Origin: Sedimenticola sp. | Lineage (GTDB): Bacteria > Pseudomonadota > Gammaproteobacteria > Chromatiales > Chromatiaceae | NCBI GenBank assembly: GCA_002869585.1 | Contig: PKUO01000105.1 | Coordinates: 62,001-126,000 of the forward strand | Reading direction: 5' to 3' | DNA length: 64,000 bases | Shown here: positions 7,035 to 20,087 of the stretch, piece after piece | Position numbering within the stretch: position 1 is the stretch's first letter | Layout of the letters: each line of letters starts with the position of its first letter | The notes under the pieces: model-generated | What the model saw: only the letters and a program-made list of their open reading frames with translations | The model's database searches: none | What the model was told of the DNA's origin: nothing | Position numbers and translations under genes: made by a program

Positions 7035-7619
7035 TCAGCCTTCGTTGGTTGCATCTGCAGCGGGGTCATAGCCTGCAGGCAGACTGTGTGCAATACCCTT
7101 GTGGCAGTCGATACAGGTCTTTGTCGGTGAGTTGCCATCAACCGCTTCCCAGTAGTGTGGGTCATGGGCGTCCGCACTGCGGGAGTCCTGCTTATCCAGA
7201 TCCATCGATACGAACTTGTGGCAGTTACGGCATTCACGCGAGTCGGTCTTCTTCATTGCCCGCCATACATTGTTCGCCAGTTCAAGGCGCTTGGCCTCAA
7301 ATTTCTCAGGCGTGTCAATGGTTCCCAGGACCTTGTGGTAGAGCTCGTTACTAGCCTGGATCTTGCGAACGATCTTATGCACCCACTCTTTCGGTACATG
7401 ACAATCAGGACAAGTGGCCCGCACACCAGTACGGTTAGTGAAGTGAATGGTCTCTTTCAACTCCTGATATACATTCTCTTCCATCTCATGGCATGAAATA
7501 CAGAAGCTTTCGGTATTCGTCCACTCCATTGCCGTATTGAAACCGCCCCAGAGGATAATACCCAGGATTATGCCTATGACCAGGGTGCCAAACACACCGC
7601 GTTTTACAACTTTAGTCAT
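7035..7619 (-). CDS. napC: NapC/NirT-type tetraheme cytochrome c
   Basis: Membrane-anchored quinol dehydrogenase that passes electrons from the quinol pool to periplasmic NapB and NapA. One N-terminal helix (residues about 9-29) anchors the protein. Four CxxCH heme sites are present: CISCH, CPDCH, CRNCH and CIDCH. The 194 residues are typical. It is the last gene of the nap operon, separated from napB by a 119-base gap that holds a hairpin, and is followed by the terminator at 6940-6990. Start ATG at 7617-7619. Confidence 0.95.
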   Translation of the reverse strand: MTKVVKRGVFGTLVIGIILGIILWGGFNTAMEWTNTESFCISCHEMEENVYQELKETIHFTNRTGVRATCPDCHVPKEWVHKIVRKIQASNELYHKVLGTIDTPEKFEAKRLELANNVWRAMKKTDSRECRNCHKFVSMDLDKQDSRSADAHDPHYWEAVDGNSPTKTCIDCHKGIAHSLPAGYDPAADATNEG

Positions 7620-10162: not shown

Positions 10163-12709
10163 TTACGCCTTGACGATTTTCACCGCACACTTTTTATAGT
10201 CGGTCTCTTTTGACAGAGGATCGGTTGCATCCAGAGTCAGTTTGTTGACCAAACGGTGTGCATCGAACCAGGGGATAAACACCAAGCCTTCGGGCACACG
10301 GTTACGACCACGTGTTTCCACGCGAGCAACCACTTCACCACGACGGGTTTGCAGTTTAGCCATCTGACCATCACGCAACCTGCGTTTCTTGGCGTCATTG
10401 GCGTGCATGTAGACCACTGCATCAGGTACCGCACGATACAGTTCAGGTACACGACGGGTCATGGAACCGGAATGCCAGTGTTCAAGCACCCGACCAGTAC
10501 ACAACCACAGATCGTATTCCTTGTCCGGGCTCTCCGCGGCAGGCTCAAACGGTGCCGTAATGATATTTGCCTTGCCATCAGGATTACCGTAAAACTTGAC
10601 GTCCTCGCCAGCAGCTACATGTGGATCGTAGCCTTCACGGAAACGCCACAGTGTCTCTTTACCGTCGATCACCGGCCAACGCAGACCACGAGCCTTGTGA
10701 TAGACGTCGTACTCTGCCATCTCATGGCCTTTCTTGATGATATCCGGAGCGGAGTTGAACAGACGATACTCTTCGAACAGGCCTTTCTGGGGATAGAATC
10801 CAAACAGGGCCATTTCGTCATTTTCATAGACATTGCCGTCAGAGTCCTTCACTTCCTGGGCGGCAAACTTGTTCACCTGGCCATTTTCATAGAGGACTTC
10901 AAACAGGGTTTTGCCTTTGTACTGAGGCGCCTTGTCGAGGAGATCTCCAGGCCACACCTCTTCCATTTTGAAGTATTTTGCAAACTCCATGATCTGCCAC
11001 AGATCGGACCTTGATTCACCCGGCCCTTTCACCTGCTGGCGCCAGAACTGGGTCCGACGCTCGGCGTTACCATAGGCGCCCTCTTTCTCCGCCCACATGG
11101 AAGTAGGCAGAATCAGGTCAGCCGCCTGTGCGGATACCGTTGGATAGGGATCAGACACAGTAATGAAGTTATCCGGGTTACGCCAACCAGGATAGGACTC
11201 TTCATTCATGTTGGCCGCGGCCTGCATGTTGTTGTTACACATGACCCAGAAGGTGTTCAGCTTGCTGTCTTTCAGCATGCGATGCATCAACACGGCGTGA
11301 TAACCGATCTTGCCGTTCAACGTACCTTCAGGCAGTTGCCAGACCTTCTCAGAGAAGGCGCGATGTTCCGGTTTTGCAACCACCAGGTCGGCGGGCAGAC
11401 GATGGCAGAAGGTACCGACTTCACGTGCAGTACCACAAGCGGATGGCTGACCGGTCAGAGAGAACGGACCGTTGCCTGGCTCGGAGATCTTGCCCATCAA
11501 CAGATGGATGTTGTAGACCAGACCATTGATCCAGACGCCACGGGTGTGCTGATTCATACCCATGGTCCAGTAGGAGACTACCTTCTTGTTGGGGTCAGCG
11601 AAGACCTTGGCCAGTCTTTCCAACTGGTCTTTCGGCACGCCGGACAGCTCATGGGCCTTATCCAGAGTATAAGGTGCGACAGACTCGGCATACTCTTCGA
11701 ATGTAATCGGGCTCAGCTTGCCCTTGGCGGCGTTTTTAGCTGCCTTTTCCAGAGGATGCTCGGGACGCAGACCATAACCGATATCGGTCGGGGTCTTGGT
11801 GAAGTTCACGTGTTTATCGATGAACGACTGGTTGTAGGCCTTGTTCTGGATGATGTAGTTGGCGATGTAGTTGGCGATCGCCAGATCAGACTGAGGCGTG
11901 AACACCATGCCATTGTCAGCCAGCTCAAAGCAACGATGCTCGTAGGTGGATAGCACATGGACTTCACAGCCCTCTTTGGTCAGACGGGTATCCGTCAGAC
12001 GCGACCAGAGAATCGGGTGCATCTCGGCCATGTTCGCGCCCCAGAGAACGAACGCATCAGCGTGTTCCAGGTCATCATAGCAACCCATGGGCTCATCGAT
12101 ACCGAAGGCGCGAATGAAAGCGCCTACCGCAGAGGCCATACAGTGGCGTGCATTCGGATCAAGGTTATTGGAACGGAGACCGGCCTTCATGAACTTGGAA
12201 GCGGCATAGCCTTCCCATACAGTCCACTGACCTGAACCGAACATACCCACGCGGGAGGTCATTTCGTTGACCGGCTTGCCCGCGTTCTCTTCAAAGCTTT
12301 TGTTAATGGCCTTCTTCCAGTGATCAGCCATTACTTGGAAGGCCTCATCCCAGGATACGGGCTCGAACTTGCCTTCTTTCGCGTATTTGCCGTCTTTCTT
12401 CCTCAGCAGAGGCTGGGTGAGACGATCCTTACCGTACATGATCTTGGGCAGAAAATAGCCCTTGATACAGTTCAGACCCTTGTTCACCGGCGCATCAGGG
12501 TCACCCTGACTCGCTACCATCTGGCCGTCTTTTACACCAACCAGTACCGAACAGCCGGTGCCGCAGAAACGGCACGCGATCTTATCCCAGCGGATGCCGT
12601 CAGCATCTGCAGCTGTTGCAGTCTTTACACCAGGTAGTGTAACGCCCGCAACCGCTGCGGCTGCCGCAACCGCATTGCTTTTTACAAAGTCACGCCTTGT
12701 TAATTTCAC
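10163..12709 (-). CDS. napA: NapA, periplasmic nitrate reductase catalytic subunit
   Basis: Molybdenum enzyme of the DMSO-reductase family that reduces nitrate to nitrite in the periplasm. The Tat signal is LTRRDFVKS at the N-terminus with a long Ala-rich hydrophobic region. The 4Fe-4S binding motif [13 protein letters not shown] lies near residue 46 with its fourth cysteine at NKGLNCIKG. The molybdenum-ligand cysteine is in [11 protein letters not shown]. The molybdopterin-dinucleotide domain near the C-terminus begins about [18 protein letters not shown]. Length 848 against 828 in E. coli. It overlaps napD by four bases (ATGA). Confidence 0.98.
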
Positions 12710-12963
12710 TGTAATACCTCCTCGTTAGCAGCTTCTTCTCCACAATAGTGGTAGATCATCACTGTGCTGATTACACCGTCCACATCATTGAACTTGGTCA
12801 AGGTGTCCGCGAGGGCGTCATCTTCAGTACCCTCTATTGTTACGATTAGCTTCCCTTCTTTCTGTCCACCGTGAACTTCAACACCAGAAAACGTTTTCAA
12901 CCTGTCACTTACTAATACGGCCTTTTCAGGTTTTGCATGAACAATTGCACTACACAGATTCAT
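12706..12963 (-). CDS. napD: NapD, NapA maturation chaperone
   Basis: An 85-residue cytoplasmic chaperone that binds the Tat signal of NapA and holds back export until the cofactor is inserted. The ferredoxin-like fold pattern is visible: [20 protein letters not shown] at the start and a final YHYCGEE segment typical of NapD. It sits between napF and napA, and its stop overlaps the napA start. Confidence 0.92.
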
Positions 12964-12978
12964 TGATTAGATCCCCCT

Positions 12979-13494
12979 TCACGCAACTTGAGCGCGCACA
13001 CTATTGTTTGAGAAGTCGATTGATTTGACGGGACACACGGCAAGACATTCGCCACAGCCGTTACACTGCTCGGCAATAAGCAAGGGTTGTGCGGAACCGC
13101 CTGGTTTTAAAGAGAAACGAATTGCCCTGGTCGGGCATACTTCTGAACAGGAACGGCAGACAACGCCATTCATAGAAAGACATTCTTTTAGAAAACTGGC
13201 CTGGATACTCCAGGGCGCTGAATCCTCTGACTGATCAATGCACAGCGCTCCGGTTTTACAGGCCTGGACGCAGAGCTGGCAAAAATCACACCCGTTGTGG
13301 GTAAAGTCGACAATGGGGTATTGACCAGGACCGGTCTTGATAATCTGTTTTGGACAAGCGCTGATGCAGTCGTTACAGCGAGTGCATTGATCCAGGAAAC
13401 GCGTCTCGGCAATCGTCCAAGGCGGGCGTATCGGATTACCCACTCCCTTTAGATCGCCTCTGATGAAACGTGATCGGCTGGAATCGTGCATCAT
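12979..13494 (-). CDS. napF: NapF, cytoplasmic ferredoxin-type protein
   Basis: A 171-residue iron-sulfur protein thought to help load the 4Fe-4S cluster of NapA before export. Three 4Fe-4S motifs are seen: CTRCNDCISACPKQI, CDFCQLCVQACKTGAL and CNGCGECLAVCPVKSI, plus an additional CRSCSEVCPTRA cysteine group. It is the first gene of napFDAGHBC. Two adjacent ATG codons (13489-13494) are possible starts; a GAGG lies 14 bases upstream, so initiation may be inefficient. An FNR-type site is centred about 64 bases before the start. Confidence 0.93.
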   Translation of the reverse strand: MMHDSSRSRFIRGDLKGVGNPIRPPWTIAETRFLDQCTRCNDCISACPKQIIKTGPGQYPIVDFTHNGCDFCQLCVQACKTGALCIDQSEDSAPWSIQASFLKECLSMNGVVCRSCSEVCPTRAIRFSLKPGGSAQPLLIAEQCNGCGECLAVCPVKSIDFSNNSVRAQVA

Positions 13495-13909
13495 GGTGTC
13501 ATGTTTACCCTCATGGCGCAGAATTCTCTCAACTGGGGCTGAAAACTACATTGACACTAATCAATCAACACTGGAACTAACTTATTGAAAATAAAAGTAA
13601 TTTAGTTGACTAAATCACTAGGAAATACTCATATTTAGGTATAGGCATAACCCTTGGCTTGCCAAAGATCGCTTTATCCCCCAGAGAGATAAAAGAGTGT
13701 TTGTGAATTCGATAACTGGCTATATTTTCAGCTGTTTTTGATCGTATTTCCTGATTGCTACCATAGGATTATCCGATAGATAGCAGAGCAAAGACCCTAC
13801 TTATAAAGTGAGTTTATAATACTCGTTTTTTATAAAAGGTTATTTTTACCCCGTAAGAGGTAGGTATTAATACCAATAATTATTCTCGCAAACCTTTATA
13901 TATAAAAGG
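13495..13909. other. 415-base AT-rich region upstream of napF with many small palindromes
   Basis: No gene is visible. Besides the FNR-type site it holds several symmetric sequences. These are TTTAGT-TG-ACTAAA (13601-13614), TTGGC-TT-GCCAA (13654-13665), TTTATC/GATAAA arms (13673-13678, 13688-13693), TTATAAA/TTTATAA arms (13801-13807, 13813-13819), the perfect palindrome GGTATTAATACC (13863-13874) and AACCTTT/AAAGGTT arms (13891-13897, 13905-13911). AGAGGTA at 13856-13862 matches the reverse of the NarL heptamer TACYYMT. The distal 100 bases probably include the 3' end of the upstream gene's transcript. Confidence 0.5.
13551..13564 (-). promoter_or_regulatory. FNR-type operator of the nap operon
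   Basis: Read on the minus strand the site is TTGAT-TAGT-GTCAA, matching the FNR consensus TTGAT-N4-ATCAA at 9 of 10 positions. If centred at -41.5, transcription would start near 13516. A GAGAAT hexamer (13528-13523), matching TATAAT at 4 of 6 bases, then lies exactly at -12 to -7. This fits a class II FNR-activated promoter for anaerobic nap expression. Confidence 0.6.
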
Positions 13910-13913
13910 TTAT
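13831..13913. repeat. 13-base exact direct repeat TATAAAAGGTTAT, two copies
   Basis: The sequence TATAAAAGGTTAT occurs at 13831-13843 and again at 13901-13913, exactly 70 bases apart. The second copy overlaps the stop codon of the GGDEF/EAL gene. The 70-base period is near seven helical turns, so a paired binding site is conceivable, but chance in AT-rich DNA is not excluded. Confidence 0.45.
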
Positions 13914-16900
13914 AGACTGGCGCTAGCCGAAATAATGGTAATTGGGGATCTATCCTGCAGAAACTCGAAAAATGCATCGGCTGCCATTGGGCGGGCGAAA
14001 TGATAACCCTGAAAGAGCTGACATCCCCGCTGGGTCAGGAAATCAAGCTCCTCTACCCGCTCCACCCCCTCGGCGATCGCCTCCAGACCCAGTTGCCGGG
14101 CCATGGTCAGGATGGTTTCGACAATCTTGGCGTCACTCGGGTCTTCAGGTACATCCTTGACGAACGAGCGATCAATCTTGATTTCATCGAGGGGCATGCG
14201 CTTCAGATAGGCCAGCGAGGAGTAGCCGGTTCCAAAGTCGTCAATTGAAAACCTGACACCTATCTTCTTCAGCTTCTCCATTTTTTCAATGGTTGAGTCC
14301 AGATCATCAATCAGCATGCCTTCCGTCACCTCAAGCGTCAGGAATTTCGGGTCTACCCCCACTTCCGCCAGCGTCTGTTCGACTGTGAAGGCAAAGTCGT
14401 GTTGCCTGAATTGCACGGGACTGACATTGACAGCGATGCGATTCATGCTCAGTTGCGGGATCTCTTTTTGATAGCGCTTGAATTGCTCCAGGGTATAGGC
14501 CAAAACCCATGTCCCGATCGAGATAATCTGTCGAGACTCCTCTGCCAGCGGAATAAACTCTTCGGGGGAGATAAAGCCCCGCTCAGGATGATCCCAACGC
14601 AGCAGGGCCTCGGCGCCGATCACGCGGCCCGATGCGTCGATCTGTGGCTGGAAATAGACTTTCAGTTCATGGAGTTTTTCCGCACGTTGCAGATCATTCA
14701 TTATTTTCAGTCGTTCATCAGCCGCCAGTTGCATACTCGGCAGGAAGAAGCGGATGGCGTTGCGACCGGAATCCTTGGCGCGATACATCGCCGTATCGGC
14801 CGCGCGCAGCAGATCGGTGGGAGATTCGTCCCCCATGGGAAACAGCGCAATACCGATGCTTGGAGTAACGTGCAGGTGTCTTTCCTGAATCAAATAGGGC
14901 TCAGAGATGGATAAGCGAATCTTCTCCGCCAGCGATTGAACGACATCTATTGCTTCGTTGGTATCGTCATCGATTTCGGAAACCAGGATCACGAATTCGT
15001 CGCCCCCCAGGCGGGAGACTGTGTCTTCTTCCCTGAGCGCGGCCTTCATTCGACTCGCCACCTGTTTCAGCAGTTCATCTCCGACCGGATGACCAAGAGA
15101 ATCATTGATGGTTTTAAAGTTATCCAGATCGAAGAACAACAGTGCGCCAATGTGGCCGTGGCGTTTGCTTTGTGCCAGCACCTGGGTCAACCGATCGAGC
15201 AGAAGCCTGCGATTGGGCAGTTCTGTCAGCGGGTCAAAATTGGCTTGCCGTTCGATAATCGCCGCCGAGCGTTTGTATTCGGTGACATCCTCGGAGAGCA
15301 GCAGATAGCCCAGCAGTTCCTGATCCCTGTTCCAGATCGGGGATATTCTTGAATCAATATACCGCAGCCCCTCCTTGCCGTTGAGATTCTGCTCCATTGA
15401 AAACCGGAATTCACCCTCTTTTCTGGCGATCTCCAAGGCCCGCTCGAGCATTGGCGTCTTCACTCCCAGGGCGTGGTGGATAGCGCCCAGGTTCACGCCC
15501 ATTACCTGCTCTGGCGCCATTTCGAACACCTGTTCTGCGGTTGAATTGTAGTAGTTGATGTTGAGGTCATTGTCTATGGCGACGATACCGACAGTGTTTG
15601 TTGAACTGAGGATACTGTCCAGATAGGCGGTTTTCTCAATCAGGGATTTTTCCGCCAATTTCAGAGCAGTCACATCCTGCACCGCACCGATCATTTTTAC
15701 CGCCTGCCCTCCTGCATCCCGCTCGACCCGACCGATCTCACGCACAAACTTTATCTCGCCAGATGGTCTTACGATCCGATGAAGCACGTCATAAGGTATA
15801 TCCTGTTCAACCGACAGTCTGACCCCCTCCTCCACAATCTGCCTGTCCGCCGGGTGGATGAAGCCCAGAAAAGCCTGATAACTAGCGGAAAAACTCTCTC
15901 GATTTATGGAAAACAGGCTGTAGATTTCATCGGACCAGTAGAGATCCCCGGTCAGGATATTCCACTCCCAGTACCCCATGTTGGCAATATTCTGCGCTTG
16001 GGCGAGTCGATCCCTGGCAATCTGCAACTCAACCGACTGACTGGAAAGCACGCCCAGATGGTTGTTGATCTGTCGATTCTTCCGAAAAAAGATATACAGA
16101 AAAATTGACAGCATACACAACAGGAACACCCCGCCGGCGATGGCCAGCGCGACAATTGCCTTGTAATTGCGCTGATAAAAGGTACTGGGGAGGTTGATGA
16201 TCGACACGGATTCAGCCAGATCCTCAGGCAGCACCAGTTGAAGCCTCTCCAGCTCATGTTGATTGAACATGTAACTGTTCGGGCTGGTCAGTACCGGGCG
16301 GTCAAGCTTTCTGCCTTCTGAAGCCAGATAGTTGATCACCAGTTGCGCTGCTGCCTCACCCTGGTGAACGCCGCTGGTAACGTAGCCGCCCAGTACACCA
16401 TCCACCAGATAACTGTCTTCCAGACTGAGAACAATAAAATCACCGGCCTGCACAATCTGCCGGATAGAGTCTGAAAGCAGCAGAGTTTGGCCGCGGTTAT
16501 CCCGCATCTCGCCCAGAGTGGTCAAAAACAGATATCGCTCAGTGCGGGGTTTCAGAATATCGACAACCCGCTCAATCCGGTTTTCCGCAATAAAGGTGGC
16601 TGTTATATCGCTATGGTGGGTCAGTTCCTCGAGGATTGTCCGTTTGATGGCATCATAGGTGTAAGAGGCATCCCCGAGAATCAGAATCTCCTTCATCGAC
16701 GGTTCCATCAGCCCGAGCAGGTCGATATTCACCCCGACCTCTTTGTCCTCGAAGACCCCAGTGATCCGTCTGTCGCCGTTTAACCTGGTCTGTACATCGT
16801 AGTCGTTGACTCCGGAAAAAAACAGCGGTGCATCCGGAAACACCCCTGCCAGATAATGCTCGGCAAACTGGAAGGCCGCATCATCGGTCAGATAGATAAT

Positions 16901-17185
16901 ATCAGGGGTATAGCCTGCATACTTTTTTTGCAGATACTCCGCGAAGAATCGGGAATAGCTGTCACTGAGGGTCCGTCTTTTGGTATCGAGATACTCGGTG
17001 CTGAACTGGATGGGGCCAGGGCTTTTTGCAGAGAGCGCCTGGACAAATCCCTGGTGCTGATTCTTTGTCCAGGGATACTCCTGACTGTAGGAATGCAGAA
17101 TGAGGATGTTTGTCGTCTGTACGGATAACACACTCCCTGAGATCATCCACAGAGCCAAAAGAAATAAAATTCTTATCTGGCGCAT
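13910..17185 (-). CDS. Periplasmic ligand-binding / PAS / GGDEF / EAL sensor protein
   Basis: A 1091-residue inner-membrane protein that probably makes and/or breaks cyclic di-GMP in response to a periplasmic ligand. The order is signal segment (residues 1-22), an ABC-type substrate-binding domain (about 25-330, beginning NILILHSYSQEYPWT), a membrane helix (about 345-368), two PAS domains (about 395-520 and 525-645), GGDEF (about 655-820) and EAL (about 835-1080). The GGDEF site is RLGGDEF with an RxxD inhibitory site (REED) five residues before it. EAL motifs are intact: EALLRW, DDFGTGYSS, KIDRSF and the late EGVE. Both activities are therefore plausible. It lies 118 bases after narL on the same strand. 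Confidence 0.93.
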   Translation of the reverse strand: MRQIRILFLLALWMISGSVLSVQTTNILILHSYSQEYPWTKNQHQGFVQALSAKSPGPIQFSTEYLDTKRRTLSDSYSRFFAEYLQKKYAGYTPDIIYLTDDAAFQFAEHYLAGVFPDAPLFFSGVNDYDVQTRLNGDRRITGVFEDKEVGVNIDLLGLMEPSMKEILILGDASYTYDAIKRTILEELTHHSDITATFIAENRIERVVDILKPRTERYLFLTTLGEMRDNRGQTLLLSDSIRQIVQAGDFIVLSLEDSYLVDGVLGGYVTSGVHQGEAAAQLVINYLASEGRKLDRPVLTSPNSYMFNQHELERLQLVLPEDLAESVSIINLPSTFYQRNYKAIVALAIAGGVFLLCMLSIFLYIFFRKNRQINNHLGVLSSQSVELQIARDRLAQAQNIANMGYWEWNILTGDLYWSDEIYSLFSINRESFSASYQAFLGFIHPADRQIVEEGVRLSVEQDIPYDVLHRIVRPSGEIKFVREIGRVERDAGGQAVKMIGAVQDVTALKLAEKSLIEKTAYLDSILSSTNTVGIVAIDNDLNINYYNSTAEQVFEMAPEQVMGVNLGAIHHALGVKTPMLERALEIARKEGEFRFSMEQNLNGKEGLRYIDSRISPIWNRDQELLGYLLLSEDVTEYKRSAAIIERQANFDPLTELPNRRLLLDRLTQVLAQSKRHGHIGALLFFDLDNFKTINDSLGHPVGDELLKQVASRMKAALREEDTVSRLGGDEFVILVSEIDDDTNEAIDVVQSLAEKIRLSISEPYLIQERHLHVTPSIGIALFPMGDESPTDLLRAADTAMYRAKDSGRNAIRFFLPSMQLAADERLKIMNDLQRAEKLHELKVYFQPQIDASGRVIGAEALLRWDHPERGFISPEEFIPLAEESRQIISIGTWVLAYTLEQFKRYQKEIPQLSMNRIAVNVSPVQFRQHDFAFTVEQTLAEVGVDPKFLTLEVTEGMLIDDLDSTIEKMEKLKKIGVRFSIDDFGTGYSSLAYLKRMPLDEIKIDRSFVKDVPEDPSDAKIVETILTMARQLGLEAIAEGVERVEELDFLTQRGCQLFQGYHFARPMAADAFFEFLQDRSPITIISASASL

Positions 17186-17303: not shown

Positions 17304-17954
17304 TTATTGCGTGTTCTTCAGGGCCCAAACGGCCGCCTCGACACGGGAGTGTAGATTGAGCTTTCGCAGCAGATGCTTGACATGCACCTTGACCGTGCCT
17401 TCCGAGATATCCAGTTGACGTGCAATCAGCTTATTGCTCATGCCCTCTGCAATCAGCTTCAGAATTTCACTCTCACGGTCTGTCAGATCCGCGCCGGCAA
17501 TGGTCTTCGGTGACTTCTGCTCCTCGCGCAGGGCGTGCGCAAGGAGTTGCGTCAGCCGCTCACTGATGACGATTTTGCCATGCACGGCGTTGCGCAGGTA
17601 CTCAAGGGTATCCTCGGGCTCCATATCCTTCAGCAGGTAGCCGTCAGCGCCGAGGCGCAATGCGTCAATCACATCCTCCTCATTATCCGAAACGGTCAAC
17701 ATCAGCACCCGTGAATCGATGTCTTTTGTTTTGATCGCCTGCAGGGTCTCCAGGCCAGACATCCCCTTCATGTTGATATCCAGCAGGATGATATCCGGTT
17801 GCAGCTCCTCGGCGATTTTCAATCCGTCCTGGCCGTTGGCCGCCTCGCCAATCAGAACCAGTGAATCCTCCATATCGATCAGGTCGCCCACCCCCTTGCG
17901 AAACAGAGGATGATCGTCGATCGTTACCACGGTGTACTGTCCGTTATTGTCCAT
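17304..17954 (-). CDS. narL: NarL/NarP-family response regulator
   Basis: A 216-residue two-component regulator with a receiver domain (about 8-125) and a LuxR-type helix-turn-helix (about 150-212). The phosphorylated Asp lies in IILLDINMKGMSGLE, with the conserved acidic pair IDDH at the start and the Lys in LLKDMEPED. The DNA-binding part reads LTDRESEILKLIAEGMSNK. Its ATG overlaps the end of narX by 11 bases, so the two form a nitrate/nitrite-sensing pair that probably controls nap. Whether it is closer to NarL or NarP cannot be told from sequence reading alone. Confidence 0.9.
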   Translation of the reverse strand: MDNNGQYTVVTIDDHPLFRKGVGDLIDMEDSLVLIGEAANGQDGLKIAEELQPDIILLDINMKGMSGLETLQAIKTKDIDSRVLMLTVSDNEEDVIDALRLGADGYLLKDMEPEDTLEYLRNAVHGKIVISERLTQLLAHALREEQKSPKTIAGADLTDRESEILKLIAEGMSNKLIARQLDISEGTVKVHVKHLLRKLNLHSRVEAAVWALKNTQ

Positions 17955-19899
17955 TGCCTACTCGCTTGATTTGAATTTCTGATTGTATATTTATCTGGTC
18001 TTCATGGGCTATAAACGACAGCTTGATCTGCGTTCCCCCTTTCTCAGGTTCACCGATCTCCAATTCACCCCCTAGCCATTCTGCCCGTTCCTTCATGATG
18101 GGCAGACCGTAATGGAGCATCATTTCACGATCGCTGGCAATACCTACACCATTATCCTCCACCACAACGGTCACCTGTCAGGAGTCACTGCAATCCAGAT
18201 AGACCCGGGCGTGGGTCGCATCGGCATGCCGGATCACGTTGGAGAGGGACTCGCGGATGATCTGCAGCACATGAATCTCGGAATTGGGATTCAGCTTACG
18301 ATTGATCAAGCGATTATCCAGCTCGATGCGAATGCCGCTTCTCTCCCTGAACTCCGCTACGGTGTCCTCGAGGGCGGCACCCAGGCCAGCCTCGCTGATG
18401 CGCAGACGGAAGGTTGTCAGTAATTCCCGCAGTTGTCTATATGCACCGTTCAGCGCGGTTCGCAACACATGGGATATCTTCAGGATATCTCCGGTCGATC
18501 GGCCATCCACCAGCTGCTTTTCCAGGCGGCTCACCTGGATCTTCAGGTATGACAGGGATTGAGCCAGTGAATCATGCAACTCCCGGGCAATAACGCTACG
18601 CTCCTCCAGCAGTGAGACCATACGGCTCTGCATGGCGCGCCGCGCCATGTTGATCGCCAGGGCGATGTGGCTTGCGACCGTTTCCAGCAGTCGCTTCTGC
18701 CAATCTTCCAGATGCTGGCCTTCGCCTTCCGGCACCTCGACCAGCAACACGCCATACTGCTCATCCTGATCCCTGATCGGGGTGGAGAAGATCATGCGTT
18801 TTCGGTGATGAAGCTGGACAATATGGGAGGTGCCATCGCCAAAGCAGAGGTTGCATTCCAGATCCTCGATGGCGTCATCCCCGAGTCTGGTTGCGGTACA
18901 GACTGTCTGCTCGTCAGCAAGATGTTTCAGACAGATCACCCCGCCTCTGATATCGATCTGCTGCTCGATATCGTTAATCACCTCCTGCAGGATCTCCTGA
19001 TTCGGCGGGGCCTCGCTCAGTCGCCTGGTCGTTAGATACAGCAGTTCCAGCGAACGGTTGCTGCGCTCCAGATCGGCGGTCTTCTCCTTGACCCGCAATT
19101 CGAGATCAGCATAAGTCTTGGACAGATCCACCGCCATGACATTGAAGGCATTACCCAACTGGCCCAGCTCATCCTCCTCCAGGTACTGGCTGCGTACTGA
19201 AAAATCGCCATGCCGGGCCGCTGTGGCACAGACCAGAAGCTCTTTCAGCGGCTTGAGCACGCTCTTCTGGGTCAGGTACATACTGACCACGGCCACCAGT
19301 AGTATCAGGACCAGGGAAACGATCTGAATCAGCCGCAGTTGCTGGATTTTGCTCTCGGCATCCAGCTCCAGCACCTTTACAAAATGGTGGATCGACTGCA
19401 CGAAGTCATCCACGTTGAACAGGTAGTACTGGCGCTGAACCCCGATTCCCTGGCCACCCAGGACACTCTCTCTGGCATTCGACTGTAGCATCACATAATC
19501 CAGCAACTGCGGCTGAATGTGCTCTTTCCACTTCTGCTCGACACTGTGATAGGCCTCCTCAACCCGAAGGCTCGAGCGTTTCGACAGTACATTGTGGATT
19601 CTTGGACTGAACAGGCGCTCCTCAAACTCATCTACCAACTCTTTTGTCCTCGCGCCCACATACTCGGATGAAACCGCGGTGCCGTGCACCAGGCTGGTGG
19701 CGATACGATAGGACTGCATGCGCAAGGTGCCCGCCTGATTGATCGCGGCGGCATAGCCTTCAGAGGTCTGAGCGATAAAACCCGAGCTGAGCATACCCAC
19801 CACCGCCAGGGTGATGATGATCGCCATGGAAAACCCCACCCGCAGTAGCAGGGATTTTTTCAGTATCTTGCTGGATGCCTTGTCTTTCTCTGTTTCCAT
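17944..19899 (-). pseudogene. narX: NarX-type nitrate sensor kinase interrupted by in-frame TGA
   Basis: Reads as one 651-residue sensor kinase if the TGA at 18178-18180 (codon 574) is ignored. Parts in order are membrane helix (about 17-40), periplasmic P-box AINQAGTLRMQSYRIA typical of nitrate sensors, second helix (about 185-207), HAMP, a central Cys-containing module (CLKH...CNLCFGDG), the histidine box RELHDSLAQSLS and the N-box RESLSNVIRHAD. Then comes the stop, and then in the same frame VVVEDNGVGI (G1 box) and a C-terminal ATPase end. The stop removes the G1 and G2 ATP-binding boxes, so the 573-residue product should lack kinase activity. I chose the ATG at 19897-19899 because GGGAG lies six bases upstream. 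Readthrough or a sequencing error would make it functional. Confidence 0.88.
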
Positions 19900-20087
19900 T
19901 ACCGGCTCCCGGGGCAGAATCAGAATGTTGAGCCTGCTGATAACGCACTCTAGAACGTGCAACGCAGAGTGACAACCCGATTGTTCCGTATAATCGCTGG
20001 AAAATCCTCCAGCAGGAATCAAGTTATTTTCGTATTTGCCCCGGCTATGAGAAAATTGCCCGTTTCCCGAATCCTAGCCGACAAAAC

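Follow-up and report, generated by a model that had tools for sequence, protein, structure and literature searches.

We read the 415-bp gene-free gap in front of napF as the promoter of the napFDAGHBC operon together with its control region, governed by FNR and NarL, and put the probability of this reading at about 86%. The gap contains an FNR box with a -10-like hexamer below it and two NarL-type 7-2-7 sites above it, lying in islands that are conserved in a second genome of the same genus (G001, hereafter the relative), and across the family such NarL sites go together with an upstream narXL. The sites, their conservation, their spacing, this co-occurrence and the genes for NarL, FNR and IHF-alpha can all be read directly from the DNA. 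The first-pass annotation had offered three options for the region, namely a multi-protein control region for nap, the 3' region of the upstream gene, or a small RNA; the first of these is the one that the sites and the family-wide narXL link support. An impression of many palindromes has in this way been turned into named sites that are open to testing.

The window, by which we mean the whole 64-kb stretch of DNA analysed, is part of one contig (C96) of a 3.93-Mb genome (G000). The napFDAGHBC operon occupies the minus strand and runs leftwards from 13494 to 7035; besides the genes given in Table 1, NapD, NapA, NapG, NapH and NapB were identified by Pfam and/or NCBIfam. The gap (13495–13909) separates napF from a gene for a PAS-GGDEF-EAL protein on the same strand, the product of which gave no Pfam family match over residues 1–412, and its G+C content is 33% against mostly 44–64% in the surrounding genes. 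Further upstream lie narL and a gene for a NarX/NarQ-type sensor kinase. The NarL protein matched PDB 1a04 with an E value of 1.6e-69, and the recognition helix, TVKVHVKH, is identical. The kinase scored nearly equally as NarX and NarQ (342 and 335 bits), in both cases below the cut-offs (578 and 553), and has the motif LRMQSYR in common with the NarQ structure 5iji; its true start is probably 19899, not 20022, because the match in the relative begins at residue 42. The genome also encodes IHF-alpha and an FNR protein (L124) with the C-x2-C-x5-C iron-sulphur cysteine motif (E 1.6e-71 to the PDB FNR 9qll). The order narX-narL-EAL-napF was also found in the relative. It was observed in passing that a cyclic-di-GMP gene (PAS-GGDEF-EAL) stands between narL and napF in both of these genomes; in the other 34 genomes of the family with narL upstream, narL ends 173–469 bp before napF (884 bp in G057).

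Table 1. Features of the nap locus, in window coordinates; promoter positions (-) are predicted
Feature	Position	Strand	Remarks
napC	ends at 7035	-	Pfam PF03264
napF	12979..13494	-	first gene of the operon; NCBIfam TIGR00402, 116 bits (cut-off 102)
-10-like hexamer GAGAAT	13523..13528	-	4/6 match to TATAAT; predicted transcription start near 13516
FNR/Anr box TTGATTAGTGTCAA	13551..13564	-	1 mismatch to TTGATNNNNATCAA; predicted centre -41.5
IHF-like site TTTCAATAAGTTA	13578..13590	-	1 mismatch; suggestive only
Palindrome ATTTAGT-CA-ACTAAAT	13600..13615	unstranded	partly conserved in G001; no known binder assigned
Proximal NarL-type site TACCTAA-AT-ATGAGTA	13626..13641	unstranded	1 mismatch; centre 76 bp above FNR centre; predicted -117.5
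Unconserved spacer	13655..13840	unstranded	holds several AT-rich dyads of the first-pass annotation; similarity to G001 P 0.88–0.98
TATAAAAGGTTAT, copy 1	13831..13843	unstranded	absent from the G001 gap
Distal NarL-type site TACCTCT-TA-CGGGGTA	13847..13862	unstranded	1 mismatch; centre 297 bp above FNR centre; predicted -338.5
Conserved block TTATTGGTATTAATACCTACC	13859..13879	-	contains palindrome GGTATTAATACC; extra GGTA/TACC half-sites
Hairpin AACCTTT/AAAGGTT	13891..13911	-	at the EAL gene stop codon
TATAAAAGGTTAT, copy 2	13901..13913	unstranded	overlaps the EAL stop codon
PAS-GGDEF-EAL protein gene	13910..17185	-	Pfam; between narL and napF
narL	17304..17954	-	NCBIfam NF007935, 313 bits (cut-off 250)
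narX/narQ-type sensor kinase gene	18178..20022	-	PilJ, HAMP and HisKA_3 domains

In a class II FNR promoter, 34.5 bp separate the centre of the box from the last base of the -10 element below it, which places the box at -41.5. The FNR box and the hexamer GAGAAT show exactly this spacing both here and in the relative, where the box reads TTGATCGACGTCAA and the hexamer is the same, and they predict a transcription start near 13516; the hexamer itself is weak. Among 87 FNR-anchored napF upstream regions (25 genera, weighted by genus), a hexamer TAnAAT emerged 29.5–34.5 bp below the FNR centre, with base frequencies of 0.61 (T), 0.60 (A), 0.47 (A), 0.49 (A) and 0.60 (T) around the free third position. 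These are the 87 of 92 regions in which the FNR box nearest to napF has at most two mismatches and lies between 50 and 140 nt from the start. A promoter scan of our sequence listed two other sites and not GAGAAT, its yield of two comparing with 1.8 in shuffles. The IHF-like site (consensus WATCAANNNNTTR) has a counterpart at the same position in the relative, TATCAATGGGTTA, which matches without a mismatch. Over the family, IHF-like matches (at most one mismatch, at most 90 bp above the FNR box) were seen in 28 of 33 regions with narL (22% of shuffles) and in 10 of 52 without (8% of shuffles), many of the former lying inside NarL sites.

The consensus for NarL and NarP is a pair of inverted heptamers, TACYYMT, set 2 bp apart. 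The first-pass annotation had pointed to a NarL-type heptamer in this region, and two 7-2-7 sites were found: in the whole window, only two places match TACYYMTNNAKRRGTA with at most one mismatch, both of them in the 415-bp gap, and just one of 5000 shuffles of the gap held two such matches. The 7-2-7 layout of NarL/NarP sites is documented (PMC4549865). Across the 3.93-Mb genome the pattern with at most one mismatch occurred at 17 places, against 18 for a reversed control pattern; this is the level of chance, a single match therefore means little, and the weight lies on clustering and conservation. Two of the 17 matches fall in this one gap, and both are within conserved islands. Of the remaining 15, L141 is accompanied by a perfect FNR box not more than 150 bp away, and at the others the best box has at least two mismatches. 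At L141 (1340–1560; contig C32 near 62394), the NarL 7-2-7 site, with one mismatch, and the perfect FNR box are about 108 bp apart; the gene that begins 132 bp below the match has the DNR protein 3dkw (E 3.7e-36) as its closest solved structure. The predicted sites agree with the NarL layout, and the cognate NarL has the NarL recognition helix.

Comparison with the relative, the one same-genus genome on which the statements on conservation rest and whose gap measures 454 bp, divides the gap into two conserved islands, proximal and distal, and an unconserved middle. In an ungapped comparison of the two sequences in 20-bp steps, with the FNR boxes in register, identity was 70–80% over 13894–13845, with the next step at 55%; it was 10–35% over 13844–13645, rose again at 13654, and was 50–75% over 13654–13525 save for one step of 40% and one of 85%. 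Local alignment placed the distal, proximal and 5' leader parts above all 500 shuffled pairs, the similarity of the middle 185 bp at shuffle level (P 0.98 strict, 0.88 lax), and the piece adjoining the EAL stop within the range of shuffles (P 0.23 and 0.32). The proximal NarL site has the counterpart TACCTAT-AA-AGTGGTA with one mismatch, and the distal one has TACCACTAATGTGGTA, in which the outer arms are kept and three mismatches are present. In both genomes they are centred 76 and 297 bp above the FNR box, respectively. The perfect palindrome GGTATTAATACC of the first-pass annotation, at 13863–13874, belongs to the distal NarL cluster. We rejected the idea that the distal block is a repeated operator, as its pattern TTGGTATNANTACCTACC, with one mismatch allowed, was found once in this genome, once in the relative and in none of the 53 other genomes searched.

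The family-wide comparison began with 98 nap loci, from which L039, L044, L049 and L120 (no usable start) and L106 and L123 (less than 250 nt upstream) were dropped, leaving 92 napF upstream regions. The two genomes of this genus were assigned to the narL group since napF is adjoined there by the EAL gene, their narL having been confirmed separately, and "without narL" means no narL match above 50% identity in the upstream flank (about 1.5 kb, shorter at contig ends). A contig scan for relatives in named genomes yielded Vibrio amylolyticus (L052) alone, which was scanned for sites and excluded from the 92. FNR boxes with at most two mismatches were present in 90 of the 92 regions, and with at most one mismatch in 80, as compared to about 2% of shuffles. 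A NarL 7-2-7 site (at most two mismatches, within 300 bp) was found in 33 of 36 regions with narL upstream versus 2 of 56 without (Fisher 4e-19, a value that is too small since the genomes are related). With the two genomes of this genus set aside, the narL group still gave 31 of 34; counted by genus, sites occurred in 6 of 8 with narL versus 2 of 22 without (P 0.0011). Shuffles of the two groups gave a site in 2.9% and 1.3%, respectively. Genera 11 and 57 each contain both kinds: their narL members (two and one) have sites, and the single non-narL member of each has none. The exceptions are G007, G058 and G083 (narL and no site) and G016 and G077 (a site and no narL seen). Among the 33 narL genomes that have a site, 27, which all belong to genera 8 and 20, have one at 84–86 bp above the FNR centre; others are 48–106 bp above it. 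In this one family, NarL sites in front of nap go with a narXL upstream of napF and are rare in its absence. As a separate observation, two FNR boxes 37–41 bp apart were seen in 22 of 56 regions without narL upstream versus 2 of 36 with it; perhaps the nap promoter has two alternative wirings.

Based on these data, we propose the following course of events. In the absence of oxygen, FNR would bind its box at -41.5 and recruit RNA polymerase to the -10 hexamer; in the presence of nitrate, NarL would be phosphorylated by the NarX/Q-type kinase, whose gene is some 5 kb upstream, and NarL-P would then occupy both 7-2-7 sites (near -117.5 and -338.5) and raise or tune FNR-dependent transcription. 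IHF may bend the DNA that separates NarL from FNR. This control can probably do without the TATAAAAGGTTAT pair and the AT-rich dyads of the middle. We offer more tentatively, and with the odds against it, the idea that the two NarL sites act jointly over 221 bp (21 turns of 10.5) by looping or wrapping, across a spacer of fixed length and free sequence, and that this arrangement arose in the genus in which the EAL gene stands between narL and napF. Its basis is that similarity to the relative is lost in the middle while the distances of 76 and 297 bp to FNR are identical. The equal 297-bp distance across a diverged spacer may reflect a constraint on spacing or, with two genomes compared, chance. 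With the distal site and the equal spacing, a simple reporter would suffice to test whether NarL acts from afar.

The stretch 13600–13913 had been singled out in the first-pass annotation for its density of dyads, a direct repeat and 310 bases without a gene. It is the upstream part of the gap ending at napF and is gene-free except for its last four bases, which are inside the EAL gene at the stop codon; its left edge leaves the FNR box outside. As evidenced by 2000 dinucleotide shuffles of this stretch (perfect arms of at least 5, loop up to 12), the density is real: there were 12 dyads versus 5.35 (P 0.0085) and 7 long dyads (arms of at least 6) versus 1.48 (P 0.001), so that shuffled AT-rich sequence gave fewer long dyads, as also in a repeat run of 1000 shuffles (P 0.013 for dyads, 0.002 for long dyads and 0.005 for the direct repeat). 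Perfect 12-base palindromes numbered two versus 0.16 (P 0.011), and those of at least 8 bases four versus 2.15 (P 0.17); with loops up to 20 the dyad excess was marginal (14 versus 8.4, P 0.05). Since the stretch had been picked by eye after looking, its P values are too favourable, and we note that in the true gap, 13495–13909, the excess of long dyads holds (6 versus 1.8, P 0.009). As controls, 19 further stretches of 314 nt were drawn from the window between ORFs of at least 150 aa; all are of higher G+C (0.43–0.61 versus 0.33), and none reached 12 dyads or 7 long dyads. Among the 92 family regions none had 7 long dyads, two had 12 dyads and one had a 13-base repeat; when each was compared with shuffles of itself, P fell below 0.05 in 15 regions for dyads, in 11 for long dyads and in 10 for the direct repeat, and a mild dyad excess is common among napF upstream regions of the family. 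The gap of the relative is also rich in dyads (19, reached by 0 of 300 shuffles; 5 long dyads, P 0.047). As to the conservation of the dyads themselves, the palindrome block and the islands with the sites are kept in the relative, and several dyads and both TATAAAAGGTTAT copies lie outside the conserved sites. The palindrome ATTTAGT-CA-ACTAAAT sits 26 bp below the proximal NarL site.

The direct repeat TATAAAAGGTTAT occurs as described, in two copies 70 bases apart from start to start, and at 13 bases it exceeds the 8.3 of shuffles of 13600–13913 (P 0.0015); the boundary of the true gap cuts it, and the longest repeat there, of 9 bases, is not unusual (P 0.40). Both of its only two exact occurrences in the 3.93-Mb genome are in this stretch. 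We set it aside as a conserved element, given that it is missing from the gap of the relative and confined to one place in our genome, and the pair is a probable local duplication. The option of the 3' region of the upstream gene accounts for the hairpin at the EAL stop codon and for nothing beyond it. This hairpin does not fold better than shuffled sequence (z -0.40, with 57 of 200 shuffles as good), nor does its equivalent in the relative (z -0.85), and the wider segment 13800–13920 does so only slightly (z -1.42, 14 of 200 as good). With nothing terminator-like in 13400–14000 and both stop hairpins at shuffle level, a terminator behind the EAL gene was discarded.

Three other readings of the region were weighed. 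It is unlikely that the distal island (about 13845–13894) serves something else, such as the operator of another regulator or a NarL-driven short transcript that starts near 13809, leaving nap to the proximal island alone. At 338 bp above the predicted start, the distal site is remote for an activator; GGTATNANTACC, part of that site, is a loose fit to the NarL heptamers; a TATTAT hexamer, found by eye at 13816–13821 of the minus strand, is about 34–39 bp below the centre of the site; and the NarL-dependent small RNA PaiI of Pseudomonas aeruginosa, as reported in PMC5703892, provides a precedent. On the other hand, no like-placed hexamer was seen by eye in the relative, and the small RNA option of the first-pass annotation found no support, as the gap is without an Rfam match or a terminator-like site and the 185 bp below the distal island are no more similar to the relative than shuffles. 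The Rfam search over 12000–15500, with E values up to 5, returned a single weak match, to the microRNA family mir-935 (27 bits, cut-off 73), at 12589–12674 and so outside the gap. Neither a conserved transcript body, with one relative compared, nor a known RNA family was found, and a small gene was rejected along with the small RNA; five ORFs of 20–41 aa touch the gap, three of which overlap napF or the EAL gene.

We consider it quite unlikely that NarL represses nap here when nitrate is plentiful, as it does at some E. coli promoters. The direction of regulation cannot be read from sequence, and NarL is described as a repressor at frdA (PMC4549865); the sites near -117 and -338, however, are upstream of FNR and the promoter and not across it, whereas the frdA sites are placed near the transcription start in the same account (PMC4549865). 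A 7-2-7 site at frdA is absent according to PMC1802743 and present according to PMC4549865. Lastly, it is improbable that the dyads arose by chance in an AT-rich gap and at the EAL 3' end and have no regulatory role, the promoter being an ordinary FNR one: the unconserved TATAAAAGGTTAT pair and middle, the folding results, the chance-level NarL pattern genome-wide and the mild dyad excess of the family would fit it, but the NarL matches clustered inside conserved islands and the narXL link speak against it.

The FNR- and NarL-controlled nap promoter that we favour resembles several known systems. At E. coli napF, NarL is centred at -44.5 and FNR above it at -64.5. As a control we scanned E. 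coli K-12, where the best NarL match above napF was TACCCCGATCGGGGTA (two mismatches), which we take to be the known 7-2-7 site on account of the 20-bp step to FNR that -44.5 and -64.5 imply; the FNR match 20 bp above it ranked third (three mismatches), behind one with two mismatches elsewhere. PMC4549865 gives the napF 7-2-7 site as -40 to -49. The operon described here is of the same kind and has the same combination of a NarL/NarP 7-2-7 site and FNR, but order and spacing are reversed, FNR being beside the promoter here and NarL 76 and 297 bp above FNR. E. coli narG has FNR at -41.5, and the layout described here, with distal NarL sites above FNR, is closer to narG than to napF. The narG promoter, as presented in PMC4549865, has NarL regions at -89 and -195, needs both FNR and IHF for full induction, and is without a 7-2-7 site; the sites described here are of the 7-2-7 type, are centred near -117 and -338, and belong to nap.

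FNR and NarP sites have been predicted upstream of napFDAGHBC in 10 of the 10 genomes of Table 1 of PMC1805755. The nap promoters of Yersinia, Pasteurellaceae and Vibrionaceae share the combination of FNR and NarL/NarP-type sites with the one presented here; in those organisms the sites are assigned to NarP, whereas here narXL is upstream of napF, with the EAL gene between them in this genus. In P. aeruginosa, ANR and NarL are reported to activate dnr jointly (PMC5703892). That pair, with PaiI, is comparable in that ANR and NarL act on nitrate-respiration genes, and our genome has a DNR-like gene with both sites; the target genes differ, and a small RNA is unsupported here. The switch is of a known kind, and its unusual part is the far NarL site, the sites lying further out than in E. 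coli napF.
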